From a virus, in the IMG/VR virus record IMGVR_UViG_3300021375_000150, positions 1-25,151 of that record: a DNA stretch of 25,151 nucleotides. One strand, 5' to 3'. The first letter of the stretch is position 1. Each line of letters starts with the position of its first letter. Position numbers and translations under genes: made by a program. Of this stretch, positions 19,566 through 22,040 are shown in pieces. The notes under the pieces are model-generated. The model ran no database searches. It saw only the letters and a list, made by a program, of their open reading frames with translations, and had not been told where the DNA came from.

Positions 19566-19904
19566 ATGCCTTCACCTTATGTACCCAAAACCTCGCACCT
19601 GAGTCCTACCCGGATTCAGAAACTTGCGAAAGATCTGATTTCCGAAGCCAAGGATGATCGTGAACTTGCGTTAAACACGCATAGATTTTTTCGGCAAATG
19701 GTAGACGAGAACCCTCAGGACTCTACCGCTAAATCCCTTATGGTGGATTGTCTAAAAGTCGCACAGGCTTCCAAGAATAATGTGATTAAGATTCTCAATC
19801 TTGTTGTAAAGATGGAAGAGTCCACAGACACTGGAAAGACCAAAGCAAACAAAGGAACAATGAACTCGACCTTTAGCGACCTAGACAATTTATTAAATGA
19901 GTGA
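19566..19904 (+). CDS. Unknown helical protein (112 aa)
   Basis: 112 residues, mostly helical, with a central conserved-looking block (DDRELALNTHRFFRQMVDENPQ, key residues R-E-L-A, F-F-R and NPQD, then AKSLMVDCLKVAQASKNNVIKILNLVVKMEE). The final 30 residues are polar and probably flexible. The ribosome binding site AAGGAGG is well placed. Its size and helical makeup would fit a small terminase subunit or a helicase loader, but no DNA-binding motif is visible, so it stays unassigned. It overlaps the Clp-like gene by 8 bases. Confidence 0.65.
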   Translation: MPSPYVPKTSHLSPTRIQKLAKDLISEAKDDRELALNTHRFFRQMVDENPQDSTAKSLMVDCLKVAQASKNNVIKILNLVVKMEESTDTGKTKANKGTMNSTFSDLDNLLNE

Positions 19905-21234
19905 TTCAGACGAAAACCGAAATGTATACAGGGCTGTTTGCCGTGATCTTAACACTGTTCTTCTAATCAAGGGAATGACCCTAGAAGAAGAGAAAGCTCT
20001 TTACTGGACTATTAAGAAACGAGTCCGTGAAGCAGAAACTCCAGTCAATTTAGAGGACTATAAGAAGTATATTGTTACTAAGTTTGTCATTGACATGGAT
20101 TCCATTATGAGCCAAGTACAAGGTTCTGATATGTACGAGGAAGAGGAGATTTATGATATCGTTTACGATGATATTATTTCTCTTTACCCTAACTTCTCTA
20201 TGTCATTCATTTGTACTGATCTGAACTCCGCTACATTTATGACTGGGTTGGAAAATTCGTCATTGTTTGATCGCTTAAAAAAGAGCATTGATGGAGAGAA
20301 AGACGAGCAAGACATTAACCTTTCTTCTCTAGAGGACATCAATTCAGCAGAGAAAGCGTTTAGAAAGAATCTACTAGGACAAGATCAGGCTATCGACAGT
20401 GTAGTTAAAGCTCTAAAGCTTACCGCTACGGGCCTTTCACAAGGAACTTCCTTCTTGTTCGTTGGTCCTACAGGTGTTGGTAAGACTGAGCTTGCTAAGA
20501 TCCTAGGAGATAAGTACAGCGGCAACTTCTACAAGGTCAACTGCGCTGAGTACGCTGGGGGTCATGAGTATGCCAAGCTTATCGGTTCTCCTCCAGGTTA
20601 CGTTGGGCACACTGAGAAGAGCCTTATGGCTGAGAAGGCAGAGAAGAGCAATCGCTGGGTGTTCCTGTTCGATGAGATCGAGAAGGCCCACCACAAGCTC
20701 TACGACTTTCTCCTGAGTCTCTTGGACGACGGCACCTGCACAGACAATATGGGCAACGTCCTAGACTTCTCTCAGTCGCTCTTTATCTTCACCTCCAACA
20801 AAGGTATCGTGGAGTCTAAGCAACGTCGCGTAGGGTTCACACACAACGATCCTACGGAGTCTGAAGAGAAGGACCTAGTTAAGAGTTCAGTGAAAGGTCA
20901 CTTCAGCCCTGAATTCATGAACCGTATTGACGAAGTAGTAATCTTTAATCATCTGACAAAAAAGGATGTTCGTAAGATCGCCAGACTTCAGCTTGAGAAG
21001 CTTCCTATCCAAATTACTTCTCCTTTGGTGGACTACGTTGTAAAGCATGGCTTCTCCCGTGAGTATGGTGCTAGGAATATTTCTCGCTTCATTAAGAATA
21101 ACATCTCGGACAAGCTTGCGGATGCAATCCTAAACAGAAAGGTGCCCAAGAAGGACGGAGAGTATTATTCCTCCAAGGTGACAAAGGATGGAGTGAAGAT
21201 CTACGATGTCAAGAATTTCGAAGCTGACGCTTGA
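19897..21234 (+). CDS. ClpA/HslU-type AAA+ unfoldase with a novel N-terminal region
   Basis: 445 residues with one AAA+ module resembling the second module of ClpA. Walker A GPTGVGKT is at 190-197, pore loop GYVG at 234-237, Walker B VFLFDE at 255-260, sensor 1 N301 in TSN, Arg finger R343 in FMNRIDEVVIF and sensor 2 GAR at 391-393. VGF at 312-314 stands exactly where ClpA has its ClpP-docking IGL loop. The first 140 residues are acidic and match no Clp N-domain I know. It could feed proteins to host ClpP, or act alone as a remodeller. The -35 box of the tRNA promoter overlaps its stop codon. Confidence 0.88.
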   Translation: MSDSDENRNVYRAVCRDLNTVLLIKGMTLEEEKALYWTIKKRVREAETPVNLEDYKKYIVTKFVIDMDSIMSQVQGSDMYEEEEIYDIVYDDIISLYPNFSMSFICTDLNSATFMTGLENSSLFDRLKKSIDGEKDEQDINLSSLEDINSAEKAFRKNLLGQDQAIDSVVKALKLTATGLSQGTSFLFVGPTGVGKTELAKILGDKYSGNFYKVNCAEYAGGHEYAKLIGSPPGYVGHTEKSLMAEKAEKSNRWVFLFDEIEKAHHKLYDFLLSLLDDGTCTDNMGNVLDFSQSLFIFTSNKGIVESKQRRVGFTHNDPTESEEKDLVKSSVKGHFSPEFMNRIDEVVIFNHLTKKDVRKIARLQLEKLPIQITSPLVDYVVKHGFSREYGARNISRFIKNNISDKLADAILNRKVPKKDGEYYSSKVTKDGVKIYDVKNFEADA

Positions 21235-21326: not shown

Positions 21327-21402
21327 CCTCCTGTAGCTCAGTGGTTAGAGCAATGTTCTTATAAAGCATAGGTCGTGGTTTCGATTACCACCAGGAGGAC
21401 CA
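21327..21402 (+). tRNA. tRNA-Ile (anticodon UAU)
   Basis: 76-nt cloverleaf with an encoded CCA. Acceptor CCTCCTG/CAGGAGG, D stem GCTC/GAGC, anticodon stem ATGTT/AGCAT with loop CTTATAA, T arm GTGGT-TTCGATT-ACCAC. The anticodon TAT reads AUA. Bacteria normally read AUA with a lysidine-modified CAU tRNA, so a UAU tRNA is an alternative brought by the phage. Confidence 0.9.
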
Positions 21403-21403
21403 A

Positions 21404-21488
21404 GCGAGTGTGGTGGAATTGGTATACACATCAGACTTAAAATCTGACGCCTTATGGATTGCGGGTTCGAGTCCCGCCACTCGTACCA
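21404..21488 (+). tRNA. tRNA-Leu (anticodon UAA)
   Basis: 85-nt class II tRNA with a long variable arm and encoded CCA. Acceptor GCGAGTG/CACTCGT (one G-T), anticodon stem TCAGA/TCTGA with loop CTTAAAA, T arm GCGGG-TTCGAGT-CCCGC. It starts one base after the CCA of the previous tRNA, so processing must separate them. It reads UUA. Confidence 0.93.
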
Positions 21489-21494
21489 TACAAC

Positions 21495-21603
21495 GGGGAA
21501 GCAATGGTATTGACAAGTTGAGTAGCGAAAGCAAGACGATTATCGCCCAAGTGTAAAGTCTCGCTCTTCTTGGACGAGGGTTCGACTCCCTCCTTCTCCA
21601 CCA
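21495..21603 (+). ncRNA. Miniature tmRNA-like gene (109 nt) with alanine-type acceptor
   Basis: The ends form a tmRNA-type tRNA-like domain: acceptor GGGGAAG (21495-21501) with CTTCTCC (21593-21599), including a G3-U70 wobble and discriminator A, the alanine identity elements, then CCA. The T arm is GAGGG-TTCGACT-CCCTC. There is no D stem and no anticodon arm. The 5' part (GCAATGGTATTGACAAGTTG) resembles one-piece cyanobacterial tmRNA, and TTGGACGAGGGTTCGA before the T loop matches the usual tmRNA 3' end. CAAG/CTTG (21514-21517/21569-21572) and GCGA/TCGC (21525-21528/21561-21564) form a P2-like helix. Normal tmRNAs are 300-400 nt; the pseudoknots and a recognisable tag are missing. A 10-codon frame from 21524 ends TAA 21554-21556 but lacks a degron-like Ala-Ala end. 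Confidence 0.72.
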
Positions 21604-21608
21604 TATAC

Positions 21609-21683
21609 GCCAGATTAGCTCAGTGGTAGAGCACTGCTTTTGTAAAGCAGCGGTCGTCGGTTCAAGTCCGACATCTGGCCCCA
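21609..21683 (+). tRNA. tRNA-Thr (anticodon UGU)
   Basis: 75-nt cloverleaf with encoded CCA. Acceptor GCCAGAT/ATCTGGC, anticodon stem CTGCT/AGCAG with loop TTTGTAA, T arm GTCGG-TTCAAGT-CCGAC. Reads ACA. The discriminator is C, unusual for bacterial tRNA-Thr (A in E. coli). Confidence 0.92.
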
Positions 21684-21693
21684 TTTACAATAC

Positions 21694-21769
21694 TCCCCAG
21701 TAACTCAGCGGTTAGAGTATTCGCCTGTTAAGCGAAGAGTCGTTTGTTCGAATCAAACCTGGGGAGCCA
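21694..21769 (+). tRNA. tRNA-Asn (anticodon GUU)
   Basis: 76-nt cloverleaf with encoded CCA and discriminator G. Acceptor TCCCCAG/CTGGGGA, anticodon stem TTCGC/GCGAA with loop CTGTTAA, T arm GTTTG-TTCGAAT-CAAAC. Reads AAC and AAU; the only tRNA of the set not aimed at an A-ending codon. Confidence 0.93.
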
Positions 21770-21782
21770 TACACATACTATT

Positions 21783-21875
21783 ATGCAAGTACAAGAAGAG
21801 AGTAACGGAGGCTGCTGGGCAGCCTTTTATATTGTCCTTTTAGTCCTTTTATGCTTCAAAGCATTTAGTAAGTAA
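21783..21875 (+). CDS. Possible single-span membrane microprotein (30 aa) inside the tRNA cluster
   Basis: A 30-codon frame from ATG 21783 to TAA 21875 encodes a polar N-terminus (MQVQEESNGG) and one hydrophobic segment (11-25, CWAAFYIVLLVLLCF) ending in Lys, a plausible inside-positive membrane helix. No ribosome binding site is visible. A terminator-like hairpin overlaps its codons 9-16, so this stretch may instead be only a processing or termination region. It fills the 112-base gap between tRNA-Asn and tRNA-Pro. Confidence 0.35.
   Translation: MQVQEESNGGCWAAFYIVLLVLLCFKAFSK
21809..21828 (+). terminator. Weak terminator-like hairpin between tRNA-Asn and tRNA-Pro
   Basis: AGGCTGC (21809-21815), loop TGG, GCAGCCT (21819-21825), with TTTT at 21825-21828 at the 3' side. 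The stem is perfect but the T run is short. If it works, it would reduce read-through into the Pro and Arg tRNAs. Confidence 0.45.
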
Positions 21876-21881
21876 CTATAA

Positions 21882-21958
21882 CGGGGTGTGGCGCAGCTTG
21901 GTAGCGCGTCCGCTTTGGGAGCGGAAGGCCGAAGGTTCGAATCCTTTCACCCCGACCA
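21882..21958 (+). tRNA. tRNA-Pro (anticodon UGG)
   Basis: 77-nt cloverleaf with encoded CCA. Acceptor CGGGGTG/CACCCCG, typical C1-G72 and A73 of tRNA-Pro, D arm GCGC/GCGC, anticodon stem TCCGC/GCGGA with loop TTTGGGA, T arm GAAGG-TTCGAAT-CCTTT (last pair G-T). Reads CCA. Confidence 0.93.
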
Positions 21959-21964
21959 TACACC

Positions 21965-22040
<76 letters not shown>

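Follow-up and report, generated by a model that had tools for sequence, protein, structure and literature searches.

An RNA gene of 109 nt within the tRNA cluster of an IMG/VR virus record was found to be a miniature tmRNA, in which the tRNA-like domain (TLD) of tmRNA is complete and a short, conserved arm built on a three-way junction takes the place of the mRNA-like region. The covariation among its relatives and the lack of a conserved reading frame show that this RNA is non-coding and maintained, and thus neither a tag-encoder nor a relic. The stretch of DNA analyzed (hereafter the window) is the 25,151-base record, which carries a T4-like replication set (gp32-like SSB, DnaB-like helicase, SbcC-like subunit, DNA polymerase, and ThyX).

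Using cmscan, positions 21495-21603 on the plus strand were matched by the Rfam tmRNA family RF00023 with 58.9 bits (gathering threshold 47, E = 6e-21), a match that denotes likeness to tmRNA in general. The coordinates are exactly those proposed by an initial annotation made from the sequence, which had also suggested such covariance scoring. This was the sole tmRNA match in the whole record, and relatives of the RNA score 56.9-71 bits against the same model. The Rfam search retains only the best among overlapping families of a clan; tmRNA was the best match in this competition, and the mitochondrial tmRNA family RF02544 was not matched among 4227 families up to an E-value of 10. ARAGORN, which looks for a tag when calling tmRNA, called nothing at 21495-21603, although six tRNA genes were called around it in a run at 21327-22040; in keeping with this, the D stem and the anticodon arm with anticodon of a canonical tRNA are missing.

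The TLD of RF00023 is present in full, with a 7-bp acceptor (GGGGAAG/CTTCTCC) containing G3-U70, a tmRNA D-loop, GGAC joined to the T-arm, and A73, all of which can be read directly from the sequence. The P2 helix linking the TLD to the remainder, earlier described as P2-like, is formed by 4 bp, UU/UU, and 4 bp (CAAG-TT-GAGT / GCTC-TT-CTTG), agrees with RF00023 and shows compensatory changes. The RF00023 model (1-374) was matched at both ends, with about 300 inner positions (tag region and pseudoknots) skipped. PK1-PK4 are accordingly absent, and the region of resume codon, tag, and stop is absent as well, no frame or stop being conserved among the 11 family members compared; the losses of pseudoknots and tag proposed at the outset are thereby confirmed. 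We regard the tmRNA identity of this RNA as near certain. Its parts and closest neighbors are given in Table 1.

Table 1. Positions of the mini-tmRNA, its structural parts, and neighboring genes in the window
Feature	Position	Strand	Evidence
Upstream phage Clp-family AAA+ ATPase	19897..21234	+	Pfam AAA_2, ClpB_D2-small; best PDB match ClpC
Flanking tRNA-Leu(UAA)	21404..21488	+	ARAGORN and RF00005
Mini-tmRNA gene, 109 nt, encoded CCA at end	21495..21603	+	RF00023 58.9 bits; CM R1 125.6 bits
Acceptor stem 5' strand GGGGAAG, with G3 of the alanine identity pair G3-U70	21495..21501	+	Pairs 1-7 100% paired; double-sided changes at pairs 5 and 6
tmRNA-type D-loop (CAATGGTATTGA), without D stem	21502..21513	+	GG..U.GAC aligned to RF00023 consensus; invariant in alignment A1
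P2 5' side CAAG-UU-GAGU	21514..21523	+	8 pairs, 4 compensatory, 100% of cells paired
GNRA mini-hairpin GC-GAAA-GC at three-way junction	21525..21532	+	GC..GC and GNAA loop invariant in all members
Third helix AGAC/GUCU, conserved loop GAUUA..GCCCA..AA	21534..21561	+	Compensatory GC/AU at columns 40-41 with 67-68; no conserved frame
P2 3' side GCUC-UU-CUUG	21563..21572	+	Alignment A1 pairing
GAC linker and T-arm GAGGG-UUCGACU-CCCUC	21573..21592	+	T stem 100% paired, 3/5 pairs compensatory
Acceptor 3' strand with U70, discriminator A73, encoded CCA	21593..21603	+	G3-U70 in 10/10 aligned members
Flanking tRNA-Thr(UGU)	21609..21683	+	ARAGORN and RF00005

When IMG/VR was scanned for the T-arm and for the inner core, copies were obtained from 12 further virus contigs, and a genome scan yielded one in a MAG contig (L225); a second core scan pattern mostly matched unrelated DNA. 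Together with the window, 11 distinct sequences of 109-112 nt with 74-99% identity were obtained, which share the acceptor with G3-U70, the tmRNA D-loop, P2, the three-way junction with its GNRA mini-hairpin, and the T-arm. A covariance model (R1) built from ten of the 11 sequences gives family members 121-130 bits, and tRNAs and ordinary tmRNAs no more than 33. The D-loop of the window RNA reads CAATGGTATTGAC and carries the tmRNA signature GG..U.GAC. Two stretches of the inner arm, AGCGNAAGC and CGATTA..GCCC, are invariant in the family and as conserved as the TLD; one core scan used in the search for relatives required both of them, and two later scans without the second requirement gave no further variant. 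Variation was observed in the third helix, which in relatives is GGAC/GUCC instead of AGAC/GUCU, and in the internal loop of P2, which is UU/UU in the family and UU/CU in L127.

The comparison of relatives for compensatory changes, also suggested by the initial annotation, was carried out on an alignment of ten sequences (A1). Standard pairs account for 99.3% of paired cells, and 11 of the 29 pairs have changed on both sides; neither the pairing nor the count of changes was reached in any of 500 shuffles, although this count is not a probability because the ten sequences are kin. Compensatory cells number 37, a count that no shuffle attained (0/500; mean 10.6 +/- 2.6), and pairing falls to 41-56% when the partners are shifted by 1-3 columns. 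Acceptor pair 5, P2 pair 22-79, and T-stem pair 86-100 are AU in some members and GC or CG in others, which requires several separate double changes. The weakest helix portion is TTA/TAA of the third helix, where one pair is broken in two members. The folding energy of the window RNA is unremarkable (MFE z -0.74) and uninformative alone. These data show that the structure has been kept by selection.

Two of the explanations offered by the initial annotation, a tmRNA whose frame is very short and ends at a TAA (21554-21556) and a relic, can be judged from the same family. A real but very short tag-encoding tmRNA finds some support in L127, L210, L121, and L111, in which a frame from GCA/GCG stops after 7-8 codons, but that frame has no stop in the window, L077, L225, L202, and L206, and in L204 and L205 it ends after four codons. 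When all frames were translated past the hairpin, no frame with a kept stop was found across the 11 sequences, and in L206 all three frames run on without a stop. The TAA actually forms the 3' strand of the UUA/UAA helix; it is not conserved as a stop and has been lost in L111. The short tag frame was rejected on this comparison and retains next to no probability: the mRNA function is gone, not shortened. A decaying relic or attachment-site remnant of a tmRNA gene would be in line with the fact that tmRNA fragments are often carried by phages and islands at attachment sites, and with a decayed-looking copy in Streptomyces phage Alone3 whose T stem is broken. Against this, the 5' and 3' halves are complete, every long helix has compensatory changes, and like RNAs occur in more than 100 further viral contigs. 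The relic reading, which is contradicted by the compensatory changes, was also rejected and is extremely improbable. What stands of the original interpretation is a miniature, maintained tmRNA without tag or pseudoknots, which is borne out by the covariance score, homologs, compensatory changes, and two unrelated genomic settings.

In the window lineage, the gene lies in the tRNA cluster downstream of the Clp-family ATPase. In contigs L202 and L206, it lies between gp32-like and recA-like genes (Pfam gp32 and RecA) on the same strand, and no tRNA was found anywhere in these two loci. Occurrence in two unrelated settings implies that the RNA is not merely carried along by the tRNA operon. No close relative was found among cultured phages by BLAST. 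As for the upstream ATPase, it is a single AAA+ protein closest to the D2 domain of ClpC, with a VGF segment kept at the place of the ClpP-docking loop of ClpC and a different N-terminal part, and many related contigs have it at a conserved position directly upstream of the tRNA cluster. A functional tie between this ATPase and the mini-tmRNA was considered and set aside, since most relatives bearing the ATPase have no mini-tmRNA nearby.

CDS-less tmRNAs are not confined to this family. An RF00023 search of virus relatives detected a second form of 81 nt in a 130-kb contig (G015, 63.6 bits). Two gapped pattern scans of IMG/VR (GGGG..TYGAC..GGAC.....TTCRAYTC........TCCA, with short middles) matched at least 120 contigs and 37 contigs, respectively. 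The matches were filtered for at least 6/7 acceptor pairs and at least 4/5 T-stem pairs, which mostly removed the same loci in the wrong register. Among the matches listed, 125 distinct sequences of 62-117 nt passed, the window family included, corresponding to about 110 further distinct CDS-less tmRNAs in IMG/VR viruses. G3-U70 is not countable as a finding in these scans because GGGG and U70-C71-C72-A73 were imposed. Acceptor pairs 5 and 6, which the pattern did not impose, occur among the matches listed as AU, UA, GC, and CG with hardly any mismatch, a result that counts partly by selection because the filter itself required acceptor pairing. P2 was not imposed either, and at least five consecutive pairs were present in 81% of the 76-85 nt class among the matches listed, compared with 2% of shuffles; an inner CCN-N4-NGG hairpin is common to this class. 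ARAGORN reported no CDS-less mini-tmRNA among those checked. It is possible, as a tentative proposal, that CDS-less mini-tmRNAs form a widespread, recurrent class of phage RNAs with several independent architectures that seize or disable host ribosome rescue, within which the three-way-junction form would be a subclass whose inner arm has a novel role, such as untagged release or alanine tailing.

Several contigs of this wider set have further features. G026 (123.6 kb) carries both a mini-tmRNA (C1:46486-46567) and a full-length-looking tmRNA (77588-77979), for which ARAGORN predicts the atypical tag SPEYRIRLLTNTKW. Two different mini-tmRNAs were observed on one virus contig in G029 (C1:42520-42602 and 109671-109753). 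In addition, the 81-nt mini-tmRNA of G015 has a pistol ribozyme (69.6 bits, L247:10527-10602, minus strand) at a distance of about 2.7 kb.

A BLAST search with two CDS-less forms detected copies in the Streptomyces phages LuckySocke, GiJojo, pSt2308, Shaeky, BRock, and Alone3. In the first five, the RNA has 81-82 nt and matches RF00023 with 57-64.5 bits; none of these five genomes has it annotated as tmRNA, and the copy in GiJojo lies under an annotated hypothetical protein. The LuckySocke copy is located at OR725497.1:17977-18057. G3-U70 is kept in LuckySocke, GiJojo, and BRock while pair 4-69 is U-A. The Alone3 copy (L399, around 501-564) has a disrupted T stem and fails to match RF00023 above the cut-off, and is apparently a decayed copy whose intact relative is found in LuckySocke. 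No SmpB gene was found in 13 records (the five Streptomyces phages and eight virus contigs), nor in the record of the window or the virus records of its family, so the host SmpB would have to serve. Other T-arm matches in INPHARED were rejected as mini-tmRNAs: those in GodonK, PaMx31, BUCT628, QDWS595, and PHB04 are actually full-length or permuted tmRNAs, and that in Bcep781 is a tRNA. The apparent full-length tmRNA of Gordonia phage GodonK (L235:204-732, 90.3 bits) has no tmRNA annotation, and a tRNA-His is annotated inside it.

CDS-less tmRNAs as such are an already known kind, from organelles and from phage DS6A, whose tmRNA was the one TLD-only phage case on record. This tmRNA has been characterized as "little more than the TLD" (Mao et al. 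2009, as cited in PMC4131195 and PMC11915505); like it, the window RNA is a phage-borne TLD without coding sequence or mRNA-like region. The window RNA goes beyond that description by about 45 nt, which form a conserved arm with a three-way junction and a GNRA hairpin; its gene is also part of a tRNA cluster, and its family has many members. It shares the acceptor, G3-U70, D-loop, P2, GGAC linker, T-arm, and CCA with canonical one-piece tmRNA (ssrA, RF00023), but lacks the tag frame and PK1-PK4 and has 109 nt instead of about 360 nt. The tag-less mitochondrial tmRNAs of jakobids and oomycetes (RF02544) have likewise kept the TLD and lost the mRNA-like function; unlike the window RNA, they are usually permuted, organellar, and partnered by a nuclear SmpB. 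Plastid tmRNAs of Mallomonadaceae (about 65 bp, as described in PMC11915505) are also CDS-less with little beyond the TLD, but they represent a plastid lineage, are shorter, and have no three-way-junction arm. According to the same account, the 2025 tmRNA database holds only 9 unique one-piece CDS-less sequences (PMC11915505), and no survey of CDS-less phage tmRNAs was found in the open-licence papers searched. What is new here is the three-way-junction family of 11 sequences with covariation support and two genomic settings, along with evidence that uncultured viruses commonly carry CDS-less tmRNAs and that cultured Streptomyces phages have them without annotation.

In tmRNA, G3-U70 and A73 serve AlaRS, the D-loop and elbow serve SmpB, and the acceptor and T-arm serve EF-Tu; accompanied by SmpB, a charged TLD is able to move into an A site that is empty. 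On this basis, the RNA would be transcribed together with the tRNA cluster, or inside the gp32-recA gene run in other phages, processed in the manner of a tRNA, alanylated by the host AlaRS via G3-U70, and bound by the host SmpB and EF-Tu. Trans-translation could not be finished for want of a resume codon, and competition with the host tmRNA for SmpB and/or stalled ribosomes would prevent both tagging and rescue in infected cells. The role of the short arm would be to close off P2, giving a stable, compact molecule. Such an alanine-accepting, SmpB-binding decoy that blocks host trans-translation is our best reading of the window RNA, with a somewhat better than even chance of being right, and among the three functions proposed in the initial annotation, an alanylated decoy for SmpB or ribosomes appears to be the best supported, given the precedent of a TLD-only tmRNA in a phage and the inhibition of tmRNA reported for a molecule of this kind. 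More specifically, later papers citing the original work describe a DS6A-like molecule, whether chargeable or not, as a strong inhibitor of tmRNA, perhaps by titrating SmpB (PMC4131195, PMC11915505). Some observations fit the decoy less well. The co-occurrence of a mini- and a full-length-looking tmRNA in G026 would be odd if the former simply blocks trans-translation, though the tag of the latter is atypical. Full-length and permuted tmRNAs in other phages indicate that phages are not uniformly against trans-translation. Moreover, the strongly conserved inner arm (GNAA hairpin and GAUUA..GCCCA loop) suggests a role beyond that of a bare decoy.

The main rival to the decoy is a tag-less rescue, in which the alanyl-mini-tmRNA with SmpB takes over the nascent chain in a stalled ribosome and another factor releases the chain untagged, which would free the phage's ribosomes without marking chains for degradation. 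We consider it unlikely, and we know of no such release step. Retention of G3-U70 in all aligned family members, and in the Streptomyces phage copies with a changed 4-69 pair, hints that charging matters. Mitochondrial tmRNA without a tag frame is reported in PMC11915505 to co-occur with SmpB and is thought there to aid on incomplete mRNAs, while the similar TLD-only molecule discussed in PMC4131195 inhibited tmRNA instead of replacing it. The conservation of the inner arm, equal to that of the TLD, and the frequent location of mini-tmRNAs within tRNA clusters could also point to a decoy or substitute outside trans-translation, such as a bait for tRNA-attacking host defences or a phage-protein site with the three-way junction as the active part; this seems quite improbable, as the TLD features for SmpB, AlaRS, and EF-Tu are all retained and such a role does not require them. 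Less probable still is template-free alanine tailing, in which repeated entry of the alanyl-mini-tmRNA with SmpB would add a C-terminal alanine tail for Clp proteases, possibly including the neighboring phage Clp ATPase. Polyalanine synthesis in vitro by SmpB and a TLD fragment, with no mRNA present, has been reported (Shimizu and Ueda 2006, as cited in PMC3929946), and the upstream ATPase aligns with ClpC D2, VGF segment included; but the link to Clp is not specific, since most relatives with the ATPase have no mini-tmRNA nearby and the gene in the L202/L206 lineage lies beside other genes. If mini-tmRNAs do block or redirect trans-translation, phages would commonly disturb ribosome rescue by RNA mimicry, and natural minimal tmRNAs would be gained for structural work.

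Further observations concern the surroundings of related copies. In MAG contig CALJGV010000023.1 (L228:14755-14850; G013:C23), bacterial DNA runs into the tRNA cluster of this phage type, with the junction at the 3' end of a tRNA-Asn and about 0.9-1 kb of phage-type DNA. An ssrA and an smpB gene are present in the bacterial part, and nothing closely related to the phage Clp gene was found in the rest of that MAG genome; the junction is compatible with both integration at a tRNA gene and a chimeric assembly. A second odd tRNA-like RNA of 98 nt, with a GGAAGAG...CTCTTCC acceptor and two T-loop-like UUCGA hairpins, was detected in L121 (5711-5808), L205 (2437-2534, minus strand), L122 (6483-6580), L245 (from about 2699), and L244. 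In L121 and L205 it closely follows the mini-tmRNA on the 3' side, and the other contigs have it at different places. It is absent from the window, was not called by ARAGORN or the Rfam tRNA model, and is nearly identical among contigs with greatly differing Clp genes. Finally, in L207 (10902-11748, minus strand), the tRNA-Leu adjoining the mini-tmRNA is apparently split by a group I intron-like stretch with an ORF.
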